Made by a program: the position numbers and the translations under genes. From contig NZ_BCRP01000009.1 of assembly GCF_001552655.1 (NCBI RefSeq), forward strand, positions 1-64,000: a DNA stretch of 64,000 nucleotides, given 5' to 3'. This DNA comes from Alicyclobacillus kakegawensis NBRC 103104. GTDB taxonomy: Bacteria > Bacillota > Bacilli > Alicyclobacillales > Alicyclobacillaceae. Below, one piece after another: positions 13,726-32,045 of this stretch. Every line of letters starts with the position of its first letter. Positions within the stretch are counted from its first letter, which is position 1. Below the pieces are notes generated by a model that was not told the DNA's origin, did no database searches, and saw nothing but the letters and a program-made list of their open reading frames with translations.

Positions 13726-14536
13726 TCTCCAGTACCACCCTGGGCAATCATTCCTGCACCGATTGGATGGACGTACGAAAATCGTCCTCTTAGGCACCTG
13801 GACCGCCTCGATCTTTCTTTTCATCGACATGCGGGTGTTGGCCGTTTTTCTGCTGGTGGGCATAGGGCTGATATCCTTGTCAGGCATCCCGTTTTCGCAG
13901 ATCCGGACGATGGTTTTCACGCTGTTTGGGTTTGTTTTGCTGACGGCCGTGCTTACGAACGTGTTGACTCCTGGATACGCTGGGCGTTACTTTCCCGTCC
14001 AGCACGTGCTGCTTTCCGTTGGGCCCGTGCGGGTGACCCGAGAGACGCTCGTGTACAGCCTGATGCTCATGATCAAGTACGCGGCCATCTTTCCCATGGC
14101 CATCCTGTTTGTATTGACCACACATCCTGGGCGTCTTGCCAGCAGTCTGCATCGACTCGGGCTCCCGTATAAAATTGCTTATGCCCTCAACATAGCCCTT
14201 CGCTACCTGCCCACCGTGCAGCGCGAATTCCAACATATTGCGTATGGACAACAGGTTCGCGGCCTTGACCTGACCGGAAATCGCCTGGGGATATGGAAGA
14301 AAGCCAAGGGAATGGCGGCCATCGTCGTCCCGCTCGTGTTCTCCAGCCTGGATAGGGTTCAAACCGTGACGGACGCTATGGAGCTGCGGGGGTTTGGGCG
14401 GAGCAAGACGCGCACCTGGTACAGCGCCACCCAGTTCAGCAGGCTGGATTATGTGGTTTGTCTGGCCTCCTTGGCGGTTTTGGGAGTATCCATTTACTTG
14501 AAGTGGACGGTATTTTCCTCGTTCTGGGCTCCGTAA
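13712..14536 (+). CDS. ECF transporter transmembrane T component
   Basis: 274-residue EcfT/CbiQ-family protein, GTG start overlapping the ATPase stop. Hydrophobic helices at the N-terminal half and near the C-terminus flank the cytoplasmic coupling helices; GRTKIVLLGTW-like start region and the coupling motif near RGLDLTG (Ala-Arg-Gly-type) and ELRGFGRSKTRT fit the family. It scaffolds the ATPases and the toppling S component. Spacing and overlap show one operon with the two previous genes, closed by the terminator at 14611. Confidence 0.88.
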   Translation: MKPLSLQYHPGQSFLHRLDGRTKIVLLGTWTASIFLFIDMRVLAVFLLVGIGLISLSGIPFSQIRTMVFTLFGFVLLTAVLTNVLTPGYAGRYFPVQHVLLSVGPVRVTRETLVYSLMLMIKYAAIFPMAILFVLTTHPGRLASSLHRLGLPYKIAYALNIALRYLPTVQREFQHIAYGQQVRGLDLTGNRLGIWKKAKGMAAIVVPLVFSSLDRVQTVTDAMELRGFGRSKTRTWYSATQFSRLDYVVCLASLAVLGVSIYLKWTVFSSFWAP

Positions 14537-14610
14537 GGCGAAGGGACCCTATCAAGGGTGGTCCATCGCGTTTTAGGGAAAGGCGGCACTTGACTGGTGG
14601 GTTGTGCCCC

Positions 14611-14644
14611 GCTGCCCGAAGTGAAAGGGCAGCTTCTTTTTTGC
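14611..14644 (+). terminator. intrinsic terminator after the ECF operon
   Basis: GCTGCCC, 9-nt loop, GGGCAGC, then TTCTTTTTT; a 7-bp perfect GC-rich stem with strong T-tail. Confidence 0.8.
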
Positions 14645-15027
14645 TTTTTATGCGCGTTATGCGTGGCTGCGGCCACAGGTGATGTCGCTCTCAAGTAGGC
14701 GGCGAAATTCATAGGCGAACTTTTGTTCCGTGACGTGATCTGTCACCCTGGGGATTTACTCTTGGTTTTGTCCAGGCAGACAGGAATTGTCGGGAAGCAG
14801 CAGGGGATACGGAGACAATGACTCTCGTGAAGAAGGGCGATTGTATCATACAGCCTGCAAAGCTCAAGGGAAGACAATTCCTGTAAATAGACTCCGTCGT
14901 TGTCACGAGTGTATTTTGATTTCTCTCTTCAGACACCTATATCTAGAAAGTTTTATTCAGATTTCAATATAGAAGCATAATGATGCTATAATTCATATAT
15001 CAGTTTCTTCTGAATGGAGGTGAATGG
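14645..15027. other. AT-rich intergenic region upstream of the cas operon
   Basis: About 380 bp with no convincing gene; small frames on both strands lack good starts. Base composition turns AT-rich here, in step with the following cas genes. It holds a possible promoter at 14963-14992 (next entry). Confidence 0.4.
14963..14992 (+). promoter_or_regulatory. possible promoter of the cas operon
   Basis: A perfect -10 TATAAT (14987-14992) lies 35 bp before cas6; the best -35 match, TTCAAT (14963-14968), is weak at 18-bp spacing. The AT-rich surroundings are favourable. Confidence 0.45.
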
Positions 15028-15783
15028 ATGCGGATCTCGCTCGAGTTTATCAGCAAGACACCCTTGCGCCTGCCTCTTCAATACAACCACTTGTTGGCGG
15101 GTGTGTGGTACAGCTACCTGAACACGCCCTATCGGACTGTGTTACACGACCAAGGCTTGCGAAGGGTGAAAGGCAAGCCGGTAAAACTCTTTACGTTTTC
15201 GCGCTTGGAAGGACCGTACGTGATGGACCGGAAATCAAAAACCATCACCTTTCACGGGCCAGTCCGTTGGACGGTGGCCAGCGCGTTAGACGAGCTCATC
15301 TACGATTTTTCCATGTCTCTTCTCAAAGCAAAGCATGTGTTGTTGGGAGGGATGGAGGTACAAGTGGGGGCTGTCAGGCTCGAGACCTATACCGGAACCA
15401 CAACGCAATCCCAGATTCGTCTGCTGTCGCCTGTCACTGTGTATAGGACCGTGAAACAACCCGACGGACGCAAGTTTACACACTACTATCGTCCGGGCAC
15501 CCCTGAGTTCACGTCATTGCTTCGCAAGAATCTAATTTTGAAGGCTACAGCATTGGGGATGGACATCACCGACGATGATGCTCAGTTTGAGATGATCCCG
15601 GTAGACGAAAACAGCCTCAAGGAGCGAATCATCCTCTACCAAGACACACCAGTTCACGGATGGGACGGTGATTTCCGACTGCGAGGAACAAGGAAAATGT
15701 TGGAATTGGCTTGGAATGCGGGGGTCGGGATGAAGAACTCAGGTGGATTTGGCATGATTGACATCTTTTCCCGAGGGAGGTGA
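15028..15783 (+). CDS. cas6: CRISPR-associated endoribonuclease Cas6 (type I-B)
   Basis: 251-residue RAMP protein that cuts the repeat RNA to leave the 8-nt AUUGAAAC 5' handle. The start MRISLEFISKTPLRLPLQYN is typical of Cas6, and the C-terminus carries the glycine-rich loop (NAGVGMKNSGGFGMIDI). GGAGGTGAATGG precedes the ATG. It opens the cas operon and ends 4 nt before cas8b. Catalytic residues are poorly conserved in this family and I do not assign them. Confidence 0.92.
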   Translation: MRISLEFISKTPLRLPLQYNHLLAGVWYSYLNTPYRTVLHDQGLRRVKGKPVKLFTFSRLEGPYVMDRKSKTITFHGPVRWTVASALDELIYDFSMSLLKAKHVLLGGMEVQVGAVRLETYTGTTTQSQIRLLSPVTVYRTVKQPDGRKFTHYYRPGTPEFTSLLRKNLILKATALGMDITDDDAQFEMIPVDENSLKERIILYQDTPVHGWDGDFRLRGTRKMLELAWNAGVGMKNSGGFGMIDIFSRGR

Positions 15784-15787
15784 GACC

Positions 15788-17815
15788 ATGCTCGATGCTA
15801 TGGTGCGCTTGGGAAGCATGTTGGCCCGTGGTGAGGACGATCTCCTCTTGACATTGGTGCAGCCCATGCCGTCAGTACAGGGAAAAGACCCGTACATCGT
15901 TTGGGTCAATATCGATACTCACCGTCCGCAATTGGAGTTCCAAAAAGTTGAATGTCGGGAAAGTGACAGGGAGCGCCTTGCCGAGGAATTGCTCTGGGTT
16001 GGGAACGCGGCAGGTCCAAACAGCCCACAGTGGACCGCTACAACGAATTCCCTGCGCTACATTCTATCCCAGACCATCGTGAACCTACAACAGATGCTTC
16101 CGGACGGTTCGTCGCTGAAAACGACGCTCTCGGACATCCAAGCGCACTGGATGGTGGATTTAGGACCACAGCGGGGGCCTGAAGAACGTTACCGTTATGT
16201 GCTCGATCTCGTTGCGCTTGGTTTCCTGCACCCGGATGAGTGGAAAGAAGTGGTGGGCTCCCGGCAAACGAACCCGGAGGAAACGATTCGCGGGAAAACG
16301 TTTATCCCGGATATAGAAAAACGGGTTATGCAAGCGGCCAATATCAGCAGCAACCGCGTCGTGCTGTGGTCATTATGCATCGACGGGAAACGAATTGTAG
16401 ATCATCCGGATTACCGCGAGCTGGTGGTTCATGACAGAATTCTGAATATCTTTGCGGAGGAAGCTTCGCCAGGCATATGTTCAGCATGCGGGGCAGAGGA
16501 CCTGGTCACAGCCAATTTTACGCGCATGAAATTCAAGTACTACAACACGGACAAGATTTCATTCGCCAGCGGCGTGCGGAGGGAGAGGTTCAACCGGAAT
16601 TTGGTTGTCTGCTCCACGTGTTACAAGGCTCTCCTGGCCGCGGAGGCGTTTGTGCACGGCCACATGAGAACACAAATAGGTCACCTGCGTTTCTACGTCA
16701 TTCCTGAGATTCTAGGTCCAAATTCATCCGAGGTAGACCCCCGGGCATGGACCAGGCTCGTTCGTCATCAGGTCCAATCCGTTGTGAACTTCGCGGGCAT
16801 CGCTGACCTGGAGGACGAGATACAAATGGATCAGGAAGAATACGGGTACCTCGGTTATGTAGTCAACTTGTTGTTTCATGTGTGGAACAACGCGGAGCTG
16901 CGCCTGTATAACCTGGTTCGGGACGTCCCGCGAACTCGGTTCCAGGAGTTGCGTCGCGCCTTTCGACGGTATGAGCGACTAGGTGAGGACCTGTTTGGCC
17001 CTCGTGGGACGAACCAGGAACGAATCCGCTGGACGCCTGATTTCACAGCACTGTACCGTCTCATTCCTGTCACGCGGACGAATCGGAGTGAAGAGTACCG
17101 GCGCGTGCTGCAACTGTTTGACGCGTTGCTGACGGGACAAGCGATATCGTACCGAACCCTGATGGAGTCCTTCTGCAAATTGATACAGATTCATCGTTTT
17201 GGCCGCTACGCCTCCACGAATGTCATGGCGCCGCAGGCTGGGTTTGAATTATCTCGTCTGAGCGATGACGTTCTGTTGGCGAATATGGTGCTGTCGATGT
17301 TGCAAGACCTGAAGCAGCTCATGGGATCTCCGTTTCATAGGGAGGCGAAAGATGTGCAGCGAGACACTCATTTGGATGCAGACGCTTTCCTCAGGCAGGT
17401 TGGGTATCGTGCCTCGCAGGAGGCCCTGTTTTGGTTGGGAGCGGCTGTATGCAGCGTGGCCACCGCGCAATGGAACAACAATCTCAAGACCATGCCAGTG
17501 TTGGAGAAGATCAATTACCGGGGTATGAGCGCGGCTGACGTGATTCGATTGGTTGGAAAGATTGAGGAAGCTTTCCAGCAATATAAGTTATTCCAGTGGT
17601 CAACCGAATCCGAAGCGTTGTTCCGCATGCACTTTGCTTTTGCCCAAGCCCTGGAGACCAATCCGCCACGCTGGAAGGCTGAGTACAGGCTGACCGATGA
17701 GGAAGCTGTATTCTACATTCTCACCGGCTTTGCCTACCGACGCAAGCAGATTCTTTCTCACCGGAGGCAGAATACACAGATGCCAGAAAGCTTGGTCGGG
17801 GATTCAGAATCATAA
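15788..17815 (+). CDS. cas8b: type I-B Cascade large subunit Cas8b
   Basis: 675 residues; by position and sequence the large subunit that reads the PAM and positions Cas3. It looks like the TM1802/Csh1 (Cas8b1) family: a central zinc-finger-like pair CSACG and CSTCY (about residues 225-285 from the start) separated by about 45 residues, embedded in an otherwise low-identity protein. The open frame begins 30 nt earlier, but ATG 15788 has GGGAGGTGAGACC upstream. Subtype assignment rests on the gene order and neighbours as much as on this poorly conserved protein. Confidence 0.85.
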   Translation: MLDAMVRLGSMLARGEDDLLLTLVQPMPSVQGKDPYIVWVNIDTHRPQLEFQKVECRESDRERLAEELLWVGNAAGPNSPQWTATTNSLRYILSQTIVNLQQMLPDGSSLKTTLSDIQAHWMVDLGPQRGPEERYRYVLDLVALGFLHPDEWKEVVGSRQTNPEETIRGKTFIPDIEKRVMQAANISSNRVVLWSLCIDGKRIVDHPDYRELVVHDRILNIFAEEASPGICSACGAEDLVTANFTRMKFKYYNTDKISFASGVRRERFNRNLVVCSTCYKALLAAEAFVHGHMRTQIGHLRFYVIPEILGPNSSEVDPRAWTRLVRHQVQSVVNFAGIADLEDEIQMDQEEYGYLGYVVNLLFHVWNNAELRLYNLVRDVPRTRFQELRRAFRRYERLGEDLFGPRGTNQERIRWTPDFTALYRLIPVTRTNRSEEYRRVLQLFDALLTGQAISYRTLMESFCKLIQIHRFGRYASTNVMAPQAGFELSRLSDDVLLANMVLSMLQDLKQLMGSPFHREAKDVQRDTHLDADAFLRQVGYRASQEALFWLGAAVCSVATAQWNNNLKTMPVLEKINYRGMSAADVIRLVGKIEEAFQQYKLFQWSTESEALFRMHFAFAQALETNPPRWKAEYRLTDEEAVFYILTGFAYRRKQILSHRRQNTQMPESLVGDSES

Positions 17816-17848
17816 TCCATTGCACAAAATACAAGGGAGGACACCGAA

Positions 17849-18799
17849 ATGAACAACAGTGAACTGCTGTTTTTGTACGACGCGCGATTGGCGAATCCCA
17901 ACGGCGATCCGGACGATGAAAATCGTCCTCGCATGGACTATCAGGCGAGGCGCAACCTGGTGAGTGACGTGCGCCTCAAACGGTACATCCGGGATTATCT
18001 TCAGGACATGGGGCACGAATTGTATGTTGCGCAACCAAAACAAGGCGAGGTTGTGACAGCAGACAAGCGGTTGCAGAGTGTCATGGGTGGCAACAAGAAA
18101 CCGACCGTCGCCGACCTGCCTGTGATTTTGGACAGGTTGATTGACATTCGTTTGTTCGGGGCGACCATGCCCATCAAGGGTGAGTCAGCAGGCTCTGGTT
18201 CTTCCATTCAGGTCACGGGACCTGTGCAGTTCACGTGGGGGTATTCGTTAAACCATGTCGACCTGGTGAATTCCTATACCATCAGTTCCCGGTTCAGCTC
18301 GCAGGAGGAAAAAAGTCAGGGCACATTTGGCAAAGATTATCGGGTCTACTATTCCTTACTGGCGTTTGCCGGTGTCGTCAGCGGGAAACGCGCAGAACTC
18401 ACGCGGTTGCAACCGGGGGATCTAGCCTGGTTGGATCAAGCTTTGGTGGAGGCCATTCCATTGCAGACCACCCGCAGCAAGATCGGACAGTACCCGCGGC
18501 TTTATCTTCGCGTGGAGTACACGGATGACCGGACTATCCTGGGCGATTGGCGTGAACTTCTCAATCTGGAGGAGAAGGAGAATTTGCGCGAAACAGGGGA
18601 TGTCCGGCTGCACGTTGATCGGCTTGTGGAACGCGTTCTCGCTTATCAGGAACGCATTGCAGCTGTTCATCTTTGGCAGCACCCCGATTTCTCAGTCCTG
18701 TATAAAGAAAAAGCGGCGCCTCTGGCCACAGTGATGGAACAACTCGTTCCTAGAAAGGTGATTGCAGTTGAAAGCGGTGCGAGAGTGACGGGCTCATGA
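17849..18799 (+). CDS. cas7: Cascade backbone subunit Cas7 (Csh2 family)
   Basis: 316-residue RAMP protein forming the crRNA-binding filament of Cascade. Family features: LFLYDARLANPNGDPDDENRPRMD near the N-terminus, DIRLFGATMP and the glycine/serine loop that follows, and QVTGPVQFTWGYSLNHVD. AAGGGAGGACACCGAA precedes the ATG. Its stop overlaps the cas5 start by 4 nt. Confidence 0.93.
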   Translation: MNNSELLFLYDARLANPNGDPDDENRPRMDYQARRNLVSDVRLKRYIRDYLQDMGHELYVAQPKQGEVVTADKRLQSVMGGNKKPTVADLPVILDRLIDIRLFGATMPIKGESAGSGSSIQVTGPVQFTWGYSLNHVDLVNSYTISSRFSSQEEKSQGTFGKDYRVYYSLLAFAGVVSGKRAELTRLQPGDLAWLDQALVEAIPLQTTRSKIGQYPRLYLRVEYTDDRTILGDWRELLNLEEKENLRETGDVRLHVDRLVERVLAYQERIAAVHLWQHPDFSVLYKEKAAPLATVMEQLVPRKVIAVESGARVTGS

Positions 18800-19590
18800 C
18801 CATTCCCGATGGCATTGTGGTCTTTGAAATGAGCGGGAGAATGGCCCACTTCCGCAAGGTTCATACGAATTCCTCTTCTCTCACGTACTTGGTGCCTCCG
18901 CGAACAACCCTTAGCGGCATCGTAGCCGCTATATTGGGGCTGGAGCGGGATTCCTATTATGAGCAGCTCGGACCAAGAAACTCTTGGTTGACTGTGTCCC
19001 TGCGCACGCCTGTGCGTACCGTCATGCAAACGATAAACAACTTGTTTGTGAAATCTCCATCGGATTTGTCGGGGTCCAATGGCCATACCCAGGTGCCCAC
19101 GGAACTGGTCATACCGCAAACGGGGGAGGGCGTCCTAACATACAGAATATATTTCTCCCATAGGGACTCAGCCGTCATGAGCGAGCTGGTGGAACGGATA
19201 GCCGAGCACAAACCGGTCTATCCAGTTGCTCTGGGAACGGCTTCCATGCTTGCGTCCTTGCACTGGGTGGAGCTCGTTACCGTTGACCGCCTGCAACTTA
19301 TTCCCGCGGGAACCGATATTGATGTCGTCACCCCTTGCCTTTTGGATGATGTGGCAGGCTGGGCCTCCGGTTTTGACGATAACATGGGAAAGCCTGTTGA
19401 AGCGGTCAAGGACCTGATGCCATACAGCTTCGGACCACATCGCACTCACGGTTGGAGCCGGGAATTTATCCTGGAACGTTCTGGGAATCCCATGCCCTTG
19501 CGATTGCGCTCCCCAGCTTGGCGATTGCATTTTACAGGCGGCCATTCGGAAGTCATAGCCTTTGCTGAGGACGGTGAGTCTTTAAGGTGA
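18796..19590 (+). CDS. cas5: Cascade subunit Cas5 (type I-B)
   Basis: 264-residue RAMP protein that caps the 5' handle of the crRNA. The N-terminus shows IVVFEMSGRMAHFRKVHTNS and YLVPPRTTLSGIVAAILGLE, the Cas5 signature. Coupled by ATGA to cas7 and by a 4-nt overlap to cas3. No sign of the catalytic role that Cas5 has in type I-C, since Cas6 is present. Confidence 0.92.
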   Translation: MTIPDGIVVFEMSGRMAHFRKVHTNSSSLTYLVPPRTTLSGIVAAILGLERDSYYEQLGPRNSWLTVSLRTPVRTVMQTINNLFVKSPSDLSGSNGHTQVPTELVIPQTGEGVLTYRIYFSHRDSAVMSELVERIAEHKPVYPVALGTASMLASLHWVELVTVDRLQLIPAGTDIDVVTPCLLDDVAGWASGFDDNMGKPVEAVKDLMPYSFGPHRTHGWSREFILERSGNPMPLRLRSPAWRLHFTGGHSEVIAFAEDGESLR

Positions 19591-22079
19591 GGGATTACGA
19601 TTCTCACGTCTGGCGTGAAGCCGATGGACGGATCTCTCGCCGGACTCGTCTATCCGACCACCTACAAGCGGTGGCCAATGCTGCAGCCGCAGCATTGGCC
19701 GACCGTGATGTGAGTCTGCAGAGATTTGGAGCTCTATCGGGTTTGTGCCACGACTTTGGCAAGTTTACGTCTTACTTTCAGACCTATCTTGTCACCGGCC
19801 ATGTTCACCCCAAGGGTTTTCAGCAACACTCATTCATATCGGCATTGTATGGTGCGTTTGAAGCGTATAGGGTTCTCGCCACTCACCAGTGGCTGCGAGA
19901 GTGGGATCCACTGCTCATTTATCTGGCGATCAAACATCACCATGGAGACCTGGCCAATCTCGACGTAGACATTGGCAGGCAATGCATGCGTGCAGCGGAT
20001 CCGTTTGAAATAACAAACCAACTCTCCGATCCGCTGTTCAAAGCGTCCCACCAAGTGCGCGATCTGGCGACGCATATGAGCGATGTCGCTGCCGAGTTAG
20101 GCAGGGCAGCTTATGGATTGCCCAATCTGCTGCCCGAGGGTTTCGTTCCACATGTGCAGGAATTTGTTGAAGATGGCTGGTGGAAGACATTTAGTCGGTT
20201 GGTCAAGGATGCCCGTTCGTATCGTCGTACGGCTGACATGAAGGGCCACCCCGTGTTCTTGCGGTTGCTTCGATGCTTCTCGGCGTTGATTGATGGAGAC
20301 AAGCGCGATGCCGCACACATTGTCACTTCCACACGTGTGGATATACCTGCCACCATTGTGGATGACTATGTCGCAAAGAGATTTAGAGGGGTTCATGGCA
20401 TGGCCACTGTGCGACGGGGGCTATACGAGAGGGTTCGCCAGCGCGCAAGAGATTTTTGCGAAAACGGGTTGTTCACACTGACTGCCCCGACTGGGAGCGG
20501 GAAAACCCTGTCTGCCCTCGCAGCAGCGATGTACCTGAGAAATCACGGTCAAGCCACAGGACAAGGGGTCCCGCGCGTCATCTATGCAATGCCATTTACG
20601 AGCATTATCGATCAAAATTATGAGGTACTCAGAAGCGTCCTGAGCAGTCTGGATGCCTTCAGCGGCAATGAACATCAATATGTGATGATGCATCACCACT
20701 TGGCCCCTGTCAAGGCTCAACGCGATGGCGTTGAGCTGCCGGTCGAAGATGCCTTGATGCTGCAGGAAGGATGGGATAGTGAATGTGTTGTAACCACGTT
20801 TGTGCAACTGTTTGATACGTTGTTGGGTTATCGAAATCGTGCCTTGAAACGTTTGCACCGTTTGGCTAATTCGATTTTGATTTTGGATGAGGTGCAGAGT
20901 TTACCTGCCGAATACTGGCCCCTAATTGGCAATTTGTTGACTACTGCTGTGAAAGAATTGCGGATGAAGGTCATCCTGATGACGGCGACCCAGCCCCGAC
21001 TATTGGTCTCCGGAGCCGTCGAATTGGCTGGGGAGCCTCAGGAAGTGCAGGATTTATTTGAACAATTGGATCGGGTTGATCTGTACGTGGATCTCTCACC
21101 CGTATCCCTGGACCAGTTTATAGACGATTTTCTGCAGAGATTCCGGCGTGATCAGTCATACTTGCTCATCTTCAACACGATTCATACGTCGATAGAGGTG
21201 TTTCAGCGGCTTGAGCAGCAATTACGAGGCACTGTGGAACATTTAAGCTACTTGTCTGGGAACGTGGTGCCGGCTATACGCAGGAAGCGTGTTGAGGAGA
21301 TCGTCGCTGCAAGTAGAGCCGGACATCCCGTTCTCGTTGTAGCCACGCAGGTTGTCGAAGCGGGGGTCGATCTGGACGTAGACGTGGTATACCGAGAATT
21401 GGCACCGATCGATTCCATAGTGCAGGCGGCAGGCCGGTGTAATCGCAACAACGCTTCATCCGACAGGGGGGAGGTGCGCGTATTTCAGCTCCTGCGCGAG
21501 TCTGGAGCGCGCAGTTCGATGGAAGTGGTCTACAAGGCCTTTAAGTCGGAAGCTACACTACGAGCGTTGGACAAACATTTGGGTGGCTCTGGGGCAGGTG
21601 TGATACCGGAATCTGCGTTACCCCGGCTTGTGACAAATTATTTTGAGACGCTGGCTGACACCATATCCAAGGGAGACTCGGAGCAGATCTGGCGCTCGGC
21701 CGCCAATCTTGACTTCTCTCCAGGAAAAGAAGGTGACGGGTTGGCGGTTTGTGACTTTCATTTAATCACCGAGTATCCGTCGTATGTAAATCTCTTCGTA
21801 GAATGTGACGAGTCAGCCGCAGAGTTATGGACGTGGTACCAGACAGACGTTGTACACGAGCTGGATTTTCGTCGGCGTCAGGAAACGTATTTGCGACGGA
21901 AAGCAGAGTTTCATGGCTACATTCTTTCCGTGCGCGCGAAGCGTGCCATGTCATTAGGTGCACAGCCAATTGGAGATGGAGGGTTGTGGTACCTGCCTGG
22001 CGTGGGGAATGGGCACGAGTATTACCACCCGGTGACAGGGCTGGCCTATCAGCCGGAAGATATCCAACTTATGTTGTAA
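19587..22079 (+). CDS. cas3: CRISPR-associated helicase-nuclease Cas3 (HD fused)
   Basis: 830 residues. The N-terminal HD nuclease shows LCHDFGKFTSYFQTYL and the following IKHHHGDL; the superfamily 2 helicase follows with Walker A TAPTGSGKT (about residue 300), motif II LILDEVQSLP (DEVQ variant common in Cas3), motif III MTATQPR and motif VI QAAGRCNRNN. It degrades DNA marked by Cascade. GTG start overlapping cas5. Length and domain order are complete, so the interference arm appears intact. Confidence 0.94.
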   Translation: MRDYDSHVWREADGRISRRTRLSDHLQAVANAAAAALADRDVSLQRFGALSGLCHDFGKFTSYFQTYLVTGHVHPKGFQQHSFISALYGAFEAYRVLATHQWLREWDPLLIYLAIKHHHGDLANLDVDIGRQCMRAADPFEITNQLSDPLFKASHQVRDLATHMSDVAAELGRAAYGLPNLLPEGFVPHVQEFVEDGWWKTFSRLVKDARSYRRTADMKGHPVFLRLLRCFSALIDGDKRDAAHIVTSTRVDIPATIVDDYVAKRFRGVHGMATVRRGLYERVRQRARDFCENGLFTLTAPTGSGKTLSALAAAMYLRNHGQATGQGVPRVIYAMPFTSIIDQNYEVLRSVLSSLDAFSGNEHQYVMMHHHLAPVKAQRDGVELPVEDALMLQEGWDSECVVTTFVQLFDTLLGYRNRALKRLHRLANSILILDEVQSLPAEYWPLIGNLLTTAVKELRMKVILMTATQPRLLVSGAVELAGEPQEVQDLFEQLDRVDLYVDLSPVSLDQFIDDFLQRFRRDQSYLLIFNTIHTSIEVFQRLEQQLRGTVEHLSYLSGNVVPAIRRKRVEEIVAASRAGHPVLVVATQVVEAGVDLDVDVVYRELAPIDSIVQAAGRCNRNNASSDRGEVRVFQLLRESGARSSMEVVYKAFKSEATLRALDKHLGGSGAGVIPESALPRLVTNYFETLADTISKGDSEQIWRSAANLDFSPGKEGDGLAVCDFHLITEYPSYVNLFVECDESAAELWTWYQTDVVHELDFRRRQETYLRRKAEFHGYILSVRAKRAMSLGAQPIGDGGLWYLPGVGNGHEYYHPVTGLAYQPEDIQLML

Positions 22080-22093
22080 CGAGAGGGGGCACG

Positions 22094-22606
22094 ATGGACG
22101 GAATGATCGAAGATATACCTGTAACCGGCACATTGGTCTGGTATTTTCATGTCTGTCCTCGCGAAGCTTGGTTGATGTCACGCCAGCTTACGCCCGACGA
22201 GGATGACGACAACATTCGCTTGGGGCGCATGATCCATGAACAGTCGTTTCCCAGAGCCACGCAAGAGGCCGATTTGGGCAGCGGAAAAATGGATCGGTTG
22301 GTAAGACGCGATGGACAATTGGTTGTTTATGAGGTAAAGAAAAGTTCTCGGCATGAACATTCGGCGCGAATGCAGTTGCTCTATTATCTGTATCAGCTCC
22401 ACGAGGAAGGGATAGAGGCGGTAGGTGAGTTGCACTTTCCAGAGGAGAAGAGAGTCATTCGCGTTACATTGGGCGAATCTGAGAAGGCAGAAATTGTGCG
22501 TACTTTGTCCCATATTCGGGAGTTACTCGCTCAAGGATCTCCACCGGCGCCAACACGAATTCCTGTATGCCGGCAGTGCGCTTATGCCGAGTTTTGTTGG
22601 GCATAG
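22094..22606 (+). CDS. cas4: Cas4 exonuclease (spacer end trimming)
   Basis: 170-residue PD-(D/E)XK nuclease with an Fe-S cluster. Cysteine of the N-terminal ligand is in FHVCPREAW; the other three are in CRQCAYAEFC at the C-terminus. Active-site residues appear in the segment ending VVYEVKKSSR (E-x-K). It selects PAM-containing ends and sets prespacer length with Cas1/Cas2. ATG 22094 follows GAGAGGGGGCACG; the open frame runs far upstream inside cas3 and is not coding. Confidence 0.92.
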   Translation: MDGMIEDIPVTGTLVWYFHVCPREAWLMSRQLTPDEDDDNIRLGRMIHEQSFPRATQEADLGSGKMDRLVRRDGQLVVYEVKKSSRHEHSARMQLLYYLYQLHEEGIEAVGELHFPEEKRVIRVTLGESEKAEIVRTLSHIRELLAQGSPPAPTRIPVCRQCAYAEFCWA

Positions 22607-22645
22607 CTTCAGCGTTCCTGTGCAGCAGAATATGGAGGAGAACCT

Positions 22646-23641
22646 ATGGTTGAGAAGAGCGTATACATTTTCTCCAATGGCGAGTTGAAAAGAAAGGACA
22701 ACACCTTATTTTTCGAGACCGAAGAGGGAAAGAAGTTCATCCCAGTTACAACAGTCCGGGATATATTCCTTTTCGGCGAAGTAATATTTAATTCTAAAGT
22801 ACTGAATTTTCTATCCCAAAACGAAGCTTTGGTTCACTATTTCAACCATCATGGTTACTATGCAGGTACCATATATCCTCGAGAGCATATCGTGTCGGGC
22901 GACATGATACTTCGCCAGGCCAGCCACTATCTCAATGTAAAATTACGGGCGGAGATAGCTCGCCGGTTTATTCAAGGTTCCGCACAAAATATCCGTAGGG
23001 TTTTAAAGTACTACCAAAGTCGTGAACGAGACGTAGCGGGGCCAATTGAACGGATTGAATCCCTACTGTCTACTATTGATGAATACGAGGATGTCACTCA
23101 GTTGATGGCAATTGAAGGAAATATCCGCGAGGCATATTACGGAGCCTTTGATGCGATTCTTCAAGACAAAGGTTTTCGGTTCGAGGGGAGAACGAAGCGT
23201 CCTCCGAAGAATCCGCTAAACGCCTTGATCAGTTTCGGAAATTCCATGCTATATACGACGGTGCTCAGTGAGATCTATAAAACGCACCTTGACGCGCGCA
23301 TTGGCTACTTGCATGCTACCAATTTCAGGCGTTTTACTCTTAACCTGGACGTGGCTGAGATATTCAAGCCAATACTCGTCGACAGGATCATCTTCACTCT
23401 AGTGGGAAAGGGAATGTTGAAACCCTCTCACTTTGTAAAGGGATCAGGAGGAGTTCTTCTCAATGACACTGGGCGCGCTATCTTTATTAAGCAATGGGAC
23501 GAGCGTTTACAGCAAACTATACAACCACGTGAATTGGGGAGACCGGTATCCTATCGACGGTTAATTCGTATGGAACTCTATAAATTGGAGAAGCATCTCC
23601 TTGGGGAAAAAGCGTATATTCCTTTTGTTGCTCGATGGTAA
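22646..23641 (+). CDS. cas1: CRISPR integrase Cas1 (type I-B)
   Basis: 331 residues, usual length for I-B. Metal-binding residues are in EGNIREAYYGAFD (Glu), YLHATNFRRFTL (His) and LDVAEIFKPILVD (Asp/Glu). GGAGGAGAACCT precedes the ATG. With Cas2 it inserts new spacers at the leader end. The gene is clearly AT-richer than the flanking chromosome. Confidence 0.95.
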   Translation: MVEKSVYIFSNGELKRKDNTLFFETEEGKKFIPVTTVRDIFLFGEVIFNSKVLNFLSQNEALVHYFNHHGYYAGTIYPREHIVSGDMILRQASHYLNVKLRAEIARRFIQGSAQNIRRVLKYYQSRERDVAGPIERIESLLSTIDEYEDVTQLMAIEGNIREAYYGAFDAILQDKGFRFEGRTKRPPKNPLNALISFGNSMLYTTVLSEIYKTHLDARIGYLHATNFRRFTLNLDVAEIFKPILVDRIIFTLVGKGMLKPSHFVKGSGGVLLNDTGRAIFIKQWDERLQQTIQPRELGRPVSYRRLIRMELYKLEKHLLGEKAYIPFVARW

Positions 23642-23660
23642 TATGTGGGGAGGGTGTAAG

Positions 23661-23924
23661 GTGTTTGTTATCGTTGTGTATGACGTGAATGTGAAAAGAG
23701 TATCGAAGGTCTTAAAAACGTGCCGTCGTTACCTTTATTGGGTTCAAAATTCAGTTCTAGAGGGTGAAATTACAAAAGCGGGGTTTGAAGAGCTCAAGCG
23801 AAAGTTAGCCGCTATTATCTCACCGGAGGATGATTCGGTTCTATTTTATATATTCCGCTCGACACGTTACACGAGCCGTGAGAGCATGGGCGTCCAGAAG
23901 GGCGGAGAGGACCGCTTTCTTTGA
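23661..23924 (+). CDS. cas2: Cas2
   Basis: 87-residue ferredoxin-fold protein that dimerises between two Cas1 dimers. FVIVVYDVNVKRVSKVLKTCRRYLYWVQNSVLEGEI is the family start; the ending SRESMGVQKGGEDRFL is the C-terminal strand that contacts Cas1. I use GTG 23661 after GGGGAGGGTGTAAG; the frame is open to 23601 (overlapping cas1), giving an unlikely extension. Last gene before the leader. Confidence 0.93.
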   Translation: MFVIVVYDVNVKRVSKVLKTCRRYLYWVQNSVLEGEITKAGFEELKRKLAAIISPEDDSVLFYIFRSTRYTSRESMGVQKGGEDRFL

Positions 23925-24136
23925 AATACGGAAATACGGCCCATACGTCTACGTCAGCCATCGCTTGGCCGTCGTCGATCTGCGGTCGCGTCAAAATCCC
24001 GAAAGATCGACGACAGCGCGGGAACAATCACATTCGTTGTTACAGCAAGGGTTTTTCGGTATCATGGACCTAGCAGAAACCGCTTCTTACAATTTACCAG
24101 CCGTTTGACTTGAGGACACCTATGCGGAAAAAATGG
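23925..24136 (+). promoter_or_regulatory. CRISPR leader
   Basis: 212 bp between cas2 and the first repeat. It contains an 11-bp perfect inverted repeat at 23971-24014 and a plausible array promoter: TGGACC (24065-24070), 17-bp spacer, TACAAT (24088-24093), putting the start near 24100, about 37 nt before repeat 1. The orientation agrees with the repeat 3' end ATTGAAAC and with degenerate repeats only at the far end. Confidence 0.75.
23971..24014. repeat. 11-bp inverted repeat in the CRISPR leader
   Basis: GTCGTCGATCT (23971-23981) and AGATCGACGAC (24004-24014) are perfect inverted repeats with a 22-nt centre. Could be a protein site or hairpin in adaptation or leader transcription. Confidence 0.6.
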
Positions 24137-27100
24137 GTTGTTAGACTGCCTTTAAGGGATTGAAACTAGATAAGATTCTGTCCTTTGCACTGGTGTTGGT
24201 CGGTTGTTAGACTGCCTTTAAGGGATTGAAACTCACGAAACCTAACATCAATATTCCCATCAACATAAATGTTGTTAGACTGCCTTTAAGGGATTGAAAC
24301 AATCAAGCGTCCGGCACGGTGGGGCAACAGATTTCGACGTTGTTAGACTGCCTTTAAGGGATTGAAACATGATTTCGGCTGCCTGACCGCCGCCACTGAC
24401 TTTAGTTGTTAGACTGCCTTTAAGGGATTGAAACTATCGACCGCTGCCAGAATATAACAACGGCGAATGGGTTGTTAGACTGCCTTTAAGGGATTGAAAC
24501 TAACGTGAAAGCTGAGTAAATCACGACTCTTTGGCCGTTGTTAGACTGCCTTTAAGGGATTGAAACGCGGTCATCGCTCGCAACCGTCGCGGGTTTTGGC
24601 AAGTTGTTAGACTGCCTTTAAGGGATTGAAACATACGGTGCGAAAGCCGGAATTGCCCGTCCGAATCCGTTGTTAGACTGCCTTTAAGGGATTGAAACCA
24701 ATCGTCTGCATGATTTGGTTAGGTGGAATTGGCCTCTGTTGTTAGACTGCCTTTAAGGGATTGAAACACAACACAACCAAAGTCATCACAGGAAAGGTGC
24801 GACGTTGTTAGACTGCCTTTAAGGGATTGAAACACGGGTATGTTGACGGGTATGTTGACGCAAAATCTCAGTTGTTAGACTGCCTTTAAGGGATTGAAAC
24901 TACGGGGAGCTGGACGATGAGGCAACCCCGGGTACGCCTAGTTGTTAGACTGCCTTTAAGGGATTGAAACTCTGGGATGACTACGACGATGATGGCCTGT
25001 GCGTCTGTTGTTAGACTGCCTTTAAGGGATTGAAACCGGATCAACGCCTACGCCTCCGGTACGAATTATGCGTTGTTAGACTGCCTTTAAGGGATTGAAA
25101 CAGTGAGAAAGAGATCAAGCAGGACGAGACAGCCATCAGTTGTTAGACTGCCTTTAAGGGATTGAAACACTTCGCGGAGGGCGCGACATGAACGATGGCG
25201 TATACAGTTGTTAGACTGCCTTTAAGGGATTGAAACTGACCGTGACTTGGATCTGATAGCTCGTGTTGTTCTGCGTTGTTAGACTGCCTTTAAGGGATTG
25301 AAACAGCAAGATCGACGACCAGTACCGGGCCGCATACGGCCGAGTTGTTAGACTGCCTTTAAGGGATTGAAACCAAAAGGCATCATTGCCGTCCGGAACA
25401 GCGAACATGGTTGTTAGACTGCCTTTAAGGGATTGAAACATCACGGCTCGTCCCGCCTTTCGTTGCGAAAACAAAGTTGTTAGACTGCCTTTAAGGGATT
25501 GAAACTGCTCCGCGACTTTCACGCGAGATATGATAGGCACGTTGTTAGACTGCCTTTAAGGGATTGAAACTTTGGCAATATGCAGGGAACAACTCTATCC
25601 TCTCGGTTGTTAGACTGCCTTTAAGGGATTGAAACTGGCATATGAGCCCACGACCTCTTCATCTGGCACCGTTGTTAGACTGCCTTTAAGGGATTGAAAC
25701 TTGGAACCGGTCGACGACCAGCTTGACTCACCAGACTCGTTGTTAGACTGCCTTTAAGGGATTGAAACACTGGGTACTGGCATGGCGAGCAGGGGACGGG
25801 AACCCTGTTGTTAGACTGCCTTTAAGGGATTGAAACCAGCCGCGCTAGACTTCGTGCAGAAGGAAGCGACCGGTTGTTAGACTGCCTTTAAGGGATTGAA
25901 ACTCCCGTCCATCCATACGGCCTTCCGTCTGCAAACGGGTTGTTAGACTGCCTTTAAGGGATTGAAACGGAACGGCCAGATGCAAGCCAACAGCACAAAG
26001 CTAGTACCAGTTGTTAGACTGCCTTTAAGGGATTGAAACTCTCTGTGAATGAGCTTCAAACGGCCTTCCGTCTGGGTTGTTAGACTGCCTTTAAGGGATT
26101 GAAACCAAACTATGCCGTAATGACGGTCACGGAGCTAGACAGGGTTGTTAGACTGCCTTTAAGGGATTGAAACCAGGGCGGCGGAAAACTCTCTGGCGGG
26201 CAGGGAGACGTTGTTAGACTGCCTTTAAGGGATTGAAACTACGTAGCGTGCCGATACTATCTTTCGGCGTCGGACTGTTGTTAGACTGCCTTTAAGGGAT
26301 TGAAACTTGTGCGCCGAATTCCGATGGCGCGTGTGCTGCAGCTTGTTGTTAGACTGCCTTTAAGGGATTGAAACCACTTGGTAAGTCGGCCAGCGTGGAT
26401 GTGGAGGCGCTGAGTTGTTAGACTGCCTTTAAGGGATTGAAACATGCAGCTCAGAAGAGGGACCTGCAGACGCTCATTCAGGTTGTTAGACTGCCTTTAA
26501 GGGATTGAAACTCCTTCAGTTCGCCAAATCCCTCGACCCATGGGAAGTACGTTGTTAGACTGCCTTTAAGGGATTGAAACTCACCTCGTAAAGGTGAGCC
26601 ATGCGCGCCAGGGTTTCGTTGTTAGACTGCCTTTAAGGGATTGAAACCGTCTGCGTTCACGGCTGCGGCTGCAGGTGCTGGCGGGTTGTTAGACTGCCTT
26701 TAAGGGATTGAAACTCTCGTTCCTTGGGACGAACGCGCGGCCTATGCTCGGTTGTTAGACTGCCTTTAAGGGATTGAAACGATAGGTTTCGGGAAGTCAC
26801 GAATGGACGGCACTTTGGTTGTTAGACTGCCTTTAAGGGATTGAAACTCCGTCGGATCTCGCGCAGTCTGCAGACGATGACAACGAGTTGTTAGACTGCC
26901 TTTAAGGGATTGAAACACCGGCACGTTCAGAGGCTGCGATACCGACGTCGCTGCGTTGTTAGACTGCCTTTAAGGGATTGAAACCGTCATGAGTGCTTAC
27001 GGTGCGTTCACACTGCTCAAGTTGTTAGACTGCCTTTAAGGGATTGAAACTACGAAAGCGGGCCGCCCAATGGGCGGTTTTTTCAGTTGTTAGACTGCCT

Positions 27101-30100
27101 TTAAGGGATTGAAACACGGAGACTGGGTCGAGTTCAACGACATCTACGATCTGTTGTTAGACTGCCTTTAAGGGATTGAAACATCTCTTCGAGGAGGGCG
27201 TTGGTCTTGTCGATACCGTTGTTAGACTGCCTTTAAGGGATTGAAACTAGCCCATGGCCTCAAACCTTATGGTCTAAATTTAACGTTGTTAGACTGCCTT
27301 TAAGGGATTGAAACAACCATCGGCCAGCGTATACACCAGCGGAAAGACCGTTGTTAGACTGCCTTTAAGGGATTGAAACTGGATTGCCTGTGGAAAACCA
27401 GCGGTGGAAACACATAGGGTTGTTAGACTGCCTTTAAGGGATTGAAACGCAGCACCGGCACCGCGCTGACGTTCACGTCGCTCGTTGTTAGACTGCCTTT
27501 AAGGGATTGAAACTCGAGCAGGCACAAGCCCTGCTGAAGGAGGCTGAGTTGTTAGACTGCCTTTAAGGGATTGAAACTCCGTCGGATCTCGCGCAGTCTG
27601 CAGACGATGACAACGGTTGTTAGACTGCCTTTAAGGGATTGAAACTCCACTAGATAAGGGGGAACGTAACTCCGATGGCTGGTTGTTAGACTGCCTTTAA
27701 GGGATTGAAACTCTTCCGTTTCGCATCCGTTGGCGCACGCGCTCGAGTTGTTAGACTGCCTTTAAGGGATTGAAACCCGTACTTGAGATCCACGATGTGA
27801 AGCGTGTCGCCGCGTTGTTAGACTGCCTTTAAGGGATTGAAACGATGAGATACGAGAGCGGAACAAAAGGCGAAGCATTTCAGTTGTTAGACTGCCTTTA
27901 AGGGATTGAAACTCCACCGTCGCAGCCTACAGCAAGGCGAGCAACAGTTGGGTTGTTAGACTGCCTTTAAGGGATTGAAACAGAAACTAACAAGATTTTA
28001 CGATGAAGCAGTACGCGCAGAGTTGTTAGACTGCCTTTAAGGGATTGAAACATGCTGGACGAGAAGCGCCGGAATATACTGCATCTACTAGTTGTTAGAC
28101 TGCCTTTAAGGGATTGAAACAAACAACAAAACGTTGGGAGGTGGTGAACGGATGGCACGTTGTTAGACTGCCTTTAAGGGATTGAAACATCAGCGCCTCC
28201 AGGCCGCTCCCACGATTGCCGTACTCGTTGTTAGACTGCCTTTAAGGGATTGAAACTTATTTCTCGGATGCCCAGGAAGCTTGGGAAGATCCCTGTTGTT
28301 AGACTGCCTTTAAGGGATTGAAACTGCGTAGGATTCCAATGGCGCGCGTCCTGCAACTCGAGTTGTTAGACTGCCTTTAAGGGATTGAAACTCGTATACT
28401 CGGATCGTGCTAAACTAGCAAACGATGGTTGTTAGACTGCCTTTAAGGGATTGAAACCGCGAGTTCTCGTCGTTCATCTTCAGCAGTGAGAAGTTGTTAG
28501 ACTGCCTTTAAGGGATTGAAACCCGCTCTCTAAAGACTCCATGATCCTTTCCAGATCGCGTTGTTAGACTGCCTTTAAGGGATTGAAACATGCCGGCAGC
28601 GCGGCCGTCCTAACCAATAAACTCGTTGTTAGACTGCCTTTAAGGGATTGAAACAACTTCATCCTGACGATGTGCGAACGAAGAAAGAACGTTGTTAGAC
28701 TGCCTTTAAGGGATTGAAACTCGACCCGGAAAGCGGGGAATGGCGCGGAGAAATAGAGTTGTTAGACTGCCTTTAAGGGATTGAAACTCACAAGTTCTCG
28801 AAAAAGTAGTGGCCGCCATCAGTTCGTTGTTAGACTGCCTTTAAGGGATTGAAACTCCGCTCAAATAACTACCCGACCATCATATGGCAGTAGTTGTTAG
28901 ACTGCCTTTAAGGGATTGAAACAAGATGCCAAGGTTTTTCTCCGAGTGGATGGCCCGGTTGTTAGACTGCCTTTAAGGGATTGAAACTACAACGCCCGTA
29001 CTTCACTCTGGTCTACACAAACAAGTTGTTAGACTGCCTTTAAGGGATTGAAACTGTTTGGAAATTCTTTCACAAGCAGACGGCAAGTCGGGTTGTTAGA
29101 CTGCCTTTAAGGGATTGAAACGCAATGGTAAAGGGACACTGGCTGTCGATGATGACACAGTTGTTAGACTGCCTTTAAGGGATTGAAACTTCCATATTCG
29201 CCTTCAAGATGGGCGGCAAGTTCAAGTTGTTAGACTGCCTTTAAGGGATTGAAACTCCCAAACTCACCCAACGATCACTCCTGTCTGTCCGTTGTTAGAC
29301 TGCCTTTAAGGGATTGAAACAAAGCTGCAACTCCGGGGCCGTGGGTGTGGAGACACGGTTGTTAGACTGCCTTTAAGGGATTGAAACCCATACGTGCTTC
29401 GATGTCCACTCTTCCACCTCCTGTTGTTAGACTGCCTTTAAGGGATTGAAACCGTGATGTCCGTGAGGGTTTGGATGCTGTTCAGCGGGCCCCAGGTTGT
29501 TAGACTGCCTTTAAGGGATTGAAACGTTATCGCGCCCAAGAAAGTGGCTGAAGCGACCTGGAGTTGTTAGACTGCCTTTAAGGGATTGAAACCGCAGGCT
29601 CTTCCCAAGATTATTACCCCCGAACGATTCAGTTGTTAGACTGCCTTTAAGGGATTGAAACCACTTTACCGTTGAAGTGATGAATTAGTATGGCCACGTT
29701 GTTAGACTGCCTTTAAGGGATTGAAACACACCAAGGGCATCCAGCTCTTGCGCAGCGTCCTTGGGTTGTTAGACTGCCTTTAAGGGATTGAAACTCCATA
29801 CATCCATCCCGCGCGAAAAATCTCCAGCCTCCCGTTGTTAGACTGCCTTTAAGGGATTGAAACTTCGCGCCTGATAGTGCCCTGACCTTGCTCATCTCCG
29901 TTGTTAGACTGCCTTTAAGGGATTGAAACGCCGACCGTCAAAACCCCAGTCGATGGCCGCATATGCGTGTTGTTAGACTGCCTTTAAGGGATTGAAACGA
30001 ATGTGGGCGTTCAAGTCAATTTCAGGCTCCAGCCTCATGTTGTTAGACTGCCTTTAAGGGATTGAAACAGCTCCTAAACAACTCTTCTAATCCCTCTTCT

Positions 30101-31145
30101 TTTTCACGGTTGTTAGACTGCCTTTAAGGGATTGAAACCACAGGGTGAGCAGCTGCCGGCCGAAGTCGTGTCGGCGCGTTGTTAGACTGCCTTTAAGGGA
30201 TTGAAACGTTGGACAGTTGATTTCACACGTACCCATGCTTTAGTTGTTAGACTGCCTTTAAGGGATTGAAACACGCTTGGAGCAACAAACTTCTCACTCG
30301 TTATAACACACGGGTTGTTAGACTGCCTTTAAGGGATTGAAACTAGGCGGTCACTTTCACGGTGACCGCCGCAAAGCCTCGTTGTTAGACTGCCTTTAAG
30401 GGATTGAAACCGGTCGGTCCCGGCGCGCTTCACCAGATAGCCCATGTGTTGTTAGACTGCCTTTAAGGGATTGAAACGAAGTGGTCAACAGCAATCCCAG
30501 CCAAGCAATGGACGTTGTTAGACTGCCTTTAAGGGATTGAAACTTCTATACGTGTAATCACCTTGTGCAAGTTCCGGCCAGGTTGTTAGACTGCCTTTAA
30601 GGGATTGAAACGTTGTCCTGGAGTGGATATCTTGTCCAATATGAGCTAGTTGTTAGACTGCCTTTAAGGGATTGAAACGCCGAAATCAAATACACGGTCG
30701 GCGCGCTAACCGGGTTGTTAGACTGCCTTTAAGGGATTGAAACGCGGGTACCCCCTTGCGCATCACCGGTCTGTACTCGCGTTGTTAGACTGCCTTTAAG
30801 GGATTGAAACCGCAGGGTGCGGTACTTTGGTGATGGCGTGATCCTGGTTGTTAGACTGCCTTTAAGGGATTGAAACAGGTGACGAAAGACGCAGAACCAC
30901 GGTATTGGATCGGTTGTTAGACTGCCTTTAAGGGATTGAAACATGCCCCTAATCGTTCCTCAATCTCGTCCAGCCAATCCGTTGTTCGACTGCCTTTAAG
31001 GGATTGAAACGCAGGTGAGAACGCATGACCCATGCAACCGAGACGTGTTGTTAGACTGCCTTTAAGGGATTGAAACTGGACAACAAGCTCCGAAGGGTTC
31101 GAAGAACCCAGGAGAGTTATTAGACTGCCTTTAAGGGATTGAAAC
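24137..31145 (+). CRISPR. type I-B CRISPR array, 105 repeats by hand count
   Basis: A 30-bp repeat beginning GTTGTTAGACTGCC and ending GGGATTGAAAC recurs 105 times from 24137 to 31145, separated by 104 spacers of 34-43 bp (hand count). Repeats 1-102 read identical; repeat 103 (30981-31010) has one change (GTTGTTC) and repeat 105 (31116-31145) starts GTTATTAG, so decay is at the distal end. The predicted crRNA handle is AUUGAAAC. Most spacers are unique; one is present twice (26848-26886 and 27578-27615). Several spacers contain a Shine-Dalgarno plus ATG, as expected from phage gene starts. Targets cannot be identified from sequence alone. Confidence 0.99.
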
Positions 31146-31553
31146 ACCCGCATAAGAATGGCGAGTTCGAGATACCATTCAGTTGGTTAGACTACCCTTG
31201 AGCATTCCTGTAATGAAGTAATTCTGAGTTTGAGGCAACAAACAACTCTTGAACTGAACGACGTCATCGCCGGCATATATATTTCAGTCACCTAGCCGTA
31301 CAAGAGAGGCCGTGCAGATCGCACGATGGCCGGCAGTGCTGGTATTGGCGCTGTTTGGTCAGGGAGAGGCTTTTCGCAGCCGTACGCAGCCAAACGCTGT
31401 TGCACATGCTTCCGGCAGGAGGAGTGGGCAGGCTACTAGGCGAAAGAGTAAAAAGAGAATGGGATTCATCCTTGGGCTGAGTTCCTCCGAGCTCGACAAG
31501 CATGGTAAGGGTCCAAGAGAATCCGCCCCAAACCTGGGAAGGAGGCCGCAACC
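31146..31553. other. CRISPR trailer and spacer region before the peroxidase gene
   Basis: About 400 bp without a convincing gene. At 31182-31209 is a decayed repeat (GTTGGTTAGACTACCC). The rest shows a return to higher GC and no clear promoter or terminator. Open frames on both strands here have no domain or good start. Confidence 0.5.
31182..31209 (+). repeat. degenerate terminal CRISPR repeat
   Basis: GTTGGTTAGACTACCCTTGA followed by CATT aligns with the array repeat with several mismatches and one insertion; it lies 36 nt after the last good repeat, the correct spacing for a dead repeat 106. Confidence 0.75.
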
Positions 31554-32045
31554 GTGTCTGTATACGATTTCACCGTCGAACGGATCGACGGGACGCCGCA
31601 GTCGCTCTCGGACTATCGCGGCAAGGTGCTGCTCATTGTCAATGTCGCCAGCCGCTGTGGATTCACGCCGCAGTACGAAGGTTTGCAGGCGCTGTACGAG
31701 GCGCATCAGAAAGAGGGGCTCGAGATTCTCGGTTTCCCTTGCAACCAGTTTGGTGGGCAGGAACCGGGGACGAACGACGAAATCCTGCAGTTTTGCCAGA
31801 CGAACTACCGCGTCAGCTTCCCGATGTTCGCCAAAATTGAGGTGAACGGCAAGAACGCGCATCCTCTCTACCAATACTTGAAGGAGCAAGCAAAGGGCGC
31901 CATGGGGACCGAGGCTATCAAGTGGAATTTCACCAAGTTCTTCGTGGGGAGGGACGGCAGTGTGGTCCGTCGGTATGCCCCCAACACGACGCCGCATGAA
32001 CTGGAGCCGGATGTGGTGGCCGAGTTGGAGAAACCGGCGCCGTAG
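31554..32045 (+). CDS. glutathione peroxidase family thiol peroxidase
   Basis: 163 residues. NVASRCGFTPQY carries the peroxidatic Cys, FPCNQFGGQEP the second motif, and KWNFTKFFVGRDG the Trp-Asn of the catalytic tetrad. Bacterial members usually take electrons from thioredoxin rather than glutathione (family knowledge). GTG 31554 follows AAGGAGGCCGCAACC. Single gene between the CRISPR trailer and a convergent acetyltransferase. Confidence 0.93.
   Translation: MSVYDFTVERIDGTPQSLSDYRGKVLLIVNVASRCGFTPQYEGLQALYEAHQKEGLEILGFPCNQFGGQEPGTNDEILQFCQTNYRVSFPMFAKIEVNGKNAHPLYQYLKEQAKGAMGTEAIKWNFTKFFVGRDGSVVRRYAPNTTPHELEPDVVAELEKPAP

Follow-up and report, generated by a model that had tools for sequence, protein, structure and literature searches.

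Each spacer captured by a CRISPR array places foreign regulatory DNA inside the array's own transcription unit. Spacer-borne transcription signals in Sulfolobales arrays and the repeat-binding protein Cbp1 were reportedly described by Deng in 2012, and Stringer is said to have described in 2020 how antitermination protects the CRISPR arrays of E. coli from Rho. In the Sulfolobales, spacers can bring promoter or terminator motifs with them, which are held to disturb transcription of the array in either the sense or the antisense orientation; Cbp1 limits this interference, and selection against such spacers has been suggested (PMC4390879). Cbp1 and Cren7 are also tied to the suppression of cryptic promoters, and in E. 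coli premature Rho-dependent termination inside long untranslated arrays limits the distal crRNAs (PMC10883916). Rho-independent terminators affect the transcription of type II-C arrays as well; there they precede the array and counteract extraneous crRNA (PMC12080349). Leader-proximal gradients of crRNA abundance have been found in the type I-B system of C. difficile (PMC3649979) and in Pyrobaculum (PMC3396285). For one type I-B array of C. autoethanogenum, RT-PCR detected leader-proximal spacers only, while RNA-Seq showed all crRNAs (PMC4022347). A theoretical study connects termination within arrays with a bias favouring young spacers (PMC5749868), and in Cas12a arrays the global RNA structure affects crRNA levels (PMC6610086).

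The array described here lies on contig 9 of the draft genome (3.4 Mb) of Alicyclobacillus kakegawensis NBRC 103104; the first 64,000 nucleotides of this contig, which include the array, are called the window. With the Sulfolobales arrays it shares a motif captured together with a spacer, spacer 44, but here the host belongs to the Bacillota, the array is of type I-B and the motif is a predicted bacterial hairpin-plus-U terminator, whereas the Cbp1 system is archaeal. In contrast to the Rho-dependent termination of E. coli, termination at spacer 44 would be intrinsic and encoded in the sequence of a single spacer, downstream of a leader with no convincing boxA, and unlike the type II-C terminators, the element is found within a spacer. 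Spacer-borne terminators that disturb arrays have already been proposed for the Sulfolobales (PMC4390879). The element in spacer 44 is real as a sequence and a useful natural test case for a problem of known kind, but neither exceptional nor a new system. In the open literature, which leaves subscription journals largely uncovered, we recognised no account of an intrinsic terminator in a bacterial spacer or of a strand comparison like the one presented below. The features of the locus are as follows.

15028 to 23924, plus strand: type I-B cas operon with cas6, cas8b (TM1802), cas7, cas5, cas3, cas4, cas1 and cas2 (Pfam: PF01881, PF09484, PF05107, PF09704, PF22590, PF01930, PF01867 and PF09827)
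23925 to 24136, plus strand: leader of 212 bases, the interval from cas2 to repeat 1, with a near-identical counterpart in the array 1 leader of the genus mate G001
24037 to 24065, plus strand: candidate sigma-70-like promoter TTGTTA-17-TATCAT from a promoter scan, a consensus match only
24137 to 31145, plus strand: CRISPR array of 105 repeats GTTGTTAGACTGCCTTTAAGGGATTGAAAC and 104 spacers, from repeat parsing
27051 to 27085, plus strand: spacer 44 from the array parse, carrying the terminator-like element
27063 to 27077, plus strand: stem-loop CCGCCC (27063-27068), AAT (27069-27071), GGGCGG (27072-27077) with six G-C pairs, to which a G-U pair may add one
27078 to 27083, plus strand: tract of six T, the predicted termination region
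27086 to 31115, plus strand: 60 leader-distal repeat-spacer units from the array parse, which would be under-expressed if spacer 44 terminates
31116 to 31211, plus strand: trailer end with the last repeat, altered at one position, and the remnant of a decayed repeat (31182-31211), marking the leader-distal end

The Pfam matches identify cas8b together with cas7, cas5, cas3, cas6 and the adaptation genes, and we take a TM1802-type Cas8b to indicate subtype I-B. The Cas8b of the window is 97% identical to that of Alicyclobacillus shizuokensis NBRC 103103 (contig NZ_BCQV01000048.1). The repeat is also present in G001, with 117 copies within two mismatches and an array on contig C48. In the Cas3 frame (19587-22079), helicase matches and no HD nuclease match were observed with Pfam at E-values up to 0.001.

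The repeats are 30 nt long and 103 of the 105 are identical; the exceptions, repeats 103 and 105, each have a single change, repeats 45 to 102 are all intact, and altered or decayed repeats are confined to the right end of the array. The cas genes (cas6-8b-7-5-3-4-1-2) are on the plus strand and run into the leader, which cas1 and cas2 adjoin. The right end of the repeat is ATTGAAAC, presumably the future 5' handle. Because cas1-cas2 lie beside the leader, ATTGAAAC is at the right and the decayed repeats are found at the right end only, the plus strand is securely predicted to be the pre-crRNA strand. A scan with two boxA consensus forms gave only a match with three mismatches at 23915, which overlaps the cas2 stop and is upstream of the candidate promoter.

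The initial annotation had described a rho-independent terminator on the pre-crRNA strand within spacer 44 of 104. The letters CCGCCC-AAT-GGGCGG-TTTTTT stand exactly at 27063-27083, the array parse confirms the spacer's number with 60 spacers to its right, and the strand agrees with the order of the cas genes, the side of the leader, the ATTGAAAC end and the decayed repeats. The element combines a G+C-rich stem of at least five pairs, a loop within 3-8 nt and a T-rich tract directly 3' of the stem, on the strand that the sequence predicts to be transcribed. Spacer 44 folds with -15.8 kcal/mol (z-score -2.6), and 3 of 200 shuffles were equally stable. Alicyclobacillus is moderately thermophilic, hence folding was also carried out at 50 °C. 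The stem alone has -12.3 kcal/mol at 37 °C and -9.7 kcal/mol at 50 °C, and it persists when both flanking repeats are included.

The T6 run is the sole one among the 104 spacers on either strand. When array and window were scored for hairpins abutting at least five T in six positions, spacer 44 was the only plus-strand site of the array and spacer 71 (-6.2 kcal/mol) the only minus-strand site. A plus-strand site of equal strength appeared in 4 of 300 dinucleotide-shuffled arrays, or in 5 of 300 when either strand was counted. In the whole window 13 listed entries at 12 places are stronger than spacer 44, some of them with longer stems, so in sequence terms it is a medium-strength terminator-like site and not an extreme one. 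A consensus scan from 14 to 32 kb ranks spacer 44 first of 22 terminator-like sites. The number of these sites shows no excess over shuffles (22 versus a mean of 20.4 in the same region); since shuffles give as many sites, the scan is no evidence on its own and the argument depends on how strong this single site is. Taken together, the sequence supports spacer 44 as a well-formed predicted intrinsic terminator in sense orientation that exceeds chance.

To place spacer 44 among other arrays, we used a strand comparison. Harmful sense terminators should be rarer than antisense ones, because the latter do nothing to the pre-crRNA. Two mirror-image patterns were run on 398 genomes of the phylum and matched 50 genomes in the sense orientation, including the window's own, and 56 in the antisense orientation. 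From these, 100 regions were fetched, leaving out G240 from the sense list and G126 and G253 from the antisense list. Four loci of relatives were added, of which three yielded arrays; the fourth, L014, gave none because its repeat ends in ATCGAAAC. The survey set comprises 144 arrays with repeats ending in ATTGAAAC, with the window's array excluded. Four chains were dropped because their repeat was unclear, and identical spacers were counted once, which reduced 6,962 spacers to 6,787 distinct ones. Most arrays were selected for a T5 or A5 run beside G+C, equally for each strand, and their base rate differs from that of random arrays. To count as a site, a hairpin had to reach -8 kcal/mol or below and touch five or more T in six positions.

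By this definition there are 16 sense and 15 antisense sites (95% interval of the ratio 0.49-2.3), half of them with five T in a row (8 sense and 8 antisense). One of the sense sites belongs to a chain of just three spacers. At -12 kcal/mol the counts are 6 and 6 (interval 0.27-3.7) and at -5 kcal/mol 38 and 45, and T5 runs alone number 599 in sense versus 552 in antisense. Counter-selection beyond about two-fold was thus not seen at -8 kcal/mol, with a limit of about four-fold at the strength of spacer 44 (6 versus 6). Nor do sense terminators lie nearer the distal end than antisense ones in the 144 arrays, the mean relative position being 0.49 for both (p = 0.89), with some arrays cut by contig or region ends. 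Both strands together hold 31 sites at -8 kcal/mol, where six shuffled replicates average 10.3 (about 3-fold), and 12 sites at -12 kcal/mol against an average of 1.5 (8-fold). Terminators are captured above chance, and sense copies are not detectably purged. This parity shows no sign of strong selection, whereas selection was suggested for the Sulfolobales (PMC4390879). The view in the initial annotation that the acquisition is a notable case of damage to the array is weakened by these counts and by the missing distal shift. An impression of a shortage of sense terminators, gained by eye from the pattern lists, was gone once all spacers were scored.

Sense sites that equal spacer 44 in strength occur in 6 of the 6,787 spacers, so at this sample's rate the chance of one per 104-spacer array is roughly one in ten. 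Strong sense terminators are found in spacer 36 of 185 in L114 (genome G079), and the G111 array (L146) has two, in spacers 21 and 27 of 83. The mirror case of spacer 44 is spacer 22 of the G052 array (L015), with a strong terminator of -14.2 kcal/mol on the antisense strand.

Searches for the source of spacer 44 gave no protospacer as an exact 24-mer in IMG/VR and the GTDB contigs, both of which may omit the window's own genome. With up to three mismatches in 41 genomes of the family, only the window itself was found. Spacer 44 hit 16 phage records, all at E-values of 1 or worse, and with the whole array as query against phage records, none was found for it at E-values up to 1. Eight loci were fetched because they match other spacers, and 12 of the 104 spacers could be placed there with mismatches of 20% or less. 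In 6 of the 12 best placements the protospacer is immediately preceded by TTG or TCG, and 10 of the 12 spacers are situated downstream of spacer 44. In these eight loci spacer 44 has no placement within 30% mismatch, and in six of them its local alignment score is at most 15 of 35.

Ten proteins of loci L192 and L194 were scanned for the gene families at protospacers. In L194 the protospacers of spacers 18, 55, 81, 90 and 93 are positioned inside genes of the phage helicase, helicase-primase, DNA polymerase and exonuclease families; judged from these five sequence matches, the array is directed against phage replication genes. No hairpin of the array is more stable than that of spacer 93 (30344-30380; -19.2 kcal/mol). 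This spacer was discarded as a captured terminator, having its protospacer within the phage helicase-primase gene and no T tract after the hairpin. L195 and L196, fetched for other protospacers, hold a similarly built terminator, CCTGCC-TTTT-GGCAGG-TTTTTT, which may belong to a phage. The source of spacer 44 is probably a phage terminator, as had been proposed in the initial annotation, and its capture was probably passive. A passive capture is plausible, since other arrays contain strong terminator-like spacers well above chance; no protospacer that would document the phage origin was found in the collections searched.

Spacers 41 (26848-26886) and 52 (27578-27615) share 38 identical nucleotides and the same 5' end and differ by one nucleotide in length; they are probably two independent acquisitions from one protospacer. 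Spacer 44 stands between them, and also between the weaker variant pair 33 and 63, but not between spacers 27 and 29. For the straddling of terminator sites by such pairs, 145 arrays were analysed and non-identical pairs sharing at least 18 nt were counted (41 pairs in 25 arrays); another 170 pairs are identical and were left out because they may stem from duplications within arrays. The 17 sense sites are straddled by 1 pair, that of the window itself, versus 2.7 expected, and the 15 antisense sites by 2 pairs versus 2.4 expected. Re-acquisition of silenced spacers across a terminator therefore failed as a general pattern.

All repeats end in TTGAAA, which would form an internal promoter together with a -10 box that follows at a distance of 16-18 nt. 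At this distance from TTGAAA we found 122 -10-like hexamers (0.60% versus 0.50% elsewhere, p = 0.07) and in the antisense control 117 (p = 0.12). As the hexamers are neither clearly enriched nor depleted, the idea of a -35 box supplied by the repeat was dropped. Promoter-like matches based on TTGAAA occur at eight spacers of the window's array, four of them past spacer 44 (58, 66, 82 and 97), all with weak -10 boxes (4 matches in 6).

We favour, with moderate confidence, the explanation that spacer 44 is a terminator captured by chance from a phage or another mobile element, that it partly terminates transcription of the array and that the loss is tolerated. The adaptation machinery would have taken up the terminator and inserted it in sense orientation. 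A fraction of the polymerases coming from the leader would then release at 27078-27084, and the crRNAs of spacers 45 to 104 would be lowered and not abolished. In stopped transcripts crRNA 44 would lack the 3' repeat handle and its guide would contain a stable hairpin, so that it probably guides poorly. The loss of distal crRNAs may be tolerated since long arrays yield few of them anyway and some polymerases would read through or start inside the array. It would not be an empty loss, because the part affected includes 10 of the 12 spacers for which targets were located. As a mechanism this is plausible from the sequence of spacer 44; against termination, the stem is shorter than those of several other terminator-like sites of the window and is weaker at 50 °C.

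A possible, though rather doubtful, alternative is that the element is read through, either by antitermination or because a medium-strength hairpin is inefficient at growth temperature, and that the downstream crRNAs are normal. The near-equal numbers of sense and antisense terminators (16 versus 15) look as if these elements were inert, and the hairpin weakens to -9.7 kcal/mol at 50 °C. The same parity is, however, equally expected under tolerated termination, just as it is equally expected if spacer 44 does not terminate. The leader may also count against antitermination: its scan with two consensus forms gave no convincing boxA, the match at 23915 being placed relative to a promoter known by consensus only. 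The antitermination reported for E. coli arrays is a precedent for read-through, but it concerns Rho-dependent termination (PMC10883916). We regard it as improbable that elongation complexes on type I arrays of Bacillota disregard intrinsic terminators and Rho alike, with phage terminators stored cost-free in either orientation. If this were true, spacer 44 and the 16 sense sites elsewhere would be natural reporters of an undescribed, array-specific antitermination.

The strongest reading in the initial annotation, in which the older half of the array is silenced at a cost and sense terminators are selected against, now appears very improbable. The pair of spacers 41 and 52 would suit it, as if one had been re-acquired after silencing, and so would pair 33 and 63; useful memories would be lost with the 10 spacers downstream, and at the strength of spacer 44 (6 versus 6) the wide interval of 0.27-3.7 leaves room for moderate selection. 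Against it stand the absence of a depletion of sense sites at -8 kcal/mol and of any distal shift, the straddling pairs, which do not exceed expectation on either strand, and the intact repeats 45 to 102. That spacer 44 is an ordinary spacer which happens to resemble a terminator concerns its origin and is compatible with either outcome of transcription. No protospacer was found for it in the collections searched, and the strong hairpin of spacer 93 derives from the inside of a phage gene, both in line with a chance likeness. We nevertheless consider such a likeness unlikely, given that only 4 of 300 shuffled arrays have a site as strong and that 12 strong sites stand against 1.5 expected in other arrays, which leaves roughly seven in eight unexplained by composition.

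Capture above chance combined with parity of the strands means that the distal memory is nearly free to lose or that arrays cope with intrinsic terminators. Besides spacer 44, the sense sites of L114, L126, L091, L146 and L106 offer natural test cases, in arrays of 35 to 185 spacers.

The G+C content of the island with the cas operon and the array (14001-32000) is 47-54%, compared with about 57-68% elsewhere in the window, and this lower content may reflect a horizontal arrival of the island. With its 3' part, spacer 85 (29795-29833) matches 26 nt of contig C43 of the host itself (L197), and its 5' part is unmatched. Spacers 53 and 103 show the same kind of half match in L192, and these half matches are perhaps borders of mosaic genes in phages. 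The two arrays of L012 belong to one genome, and spacer 2 of each goes back to one shared protospacer, though the two spacers differ at the 3' end (35 and 38 nt). Spacer 89 (30069-30108) of the window recurs with a shift of one nucleotide as spacer 12 of a G001 array (L013); the two species acquired it independently from one site.
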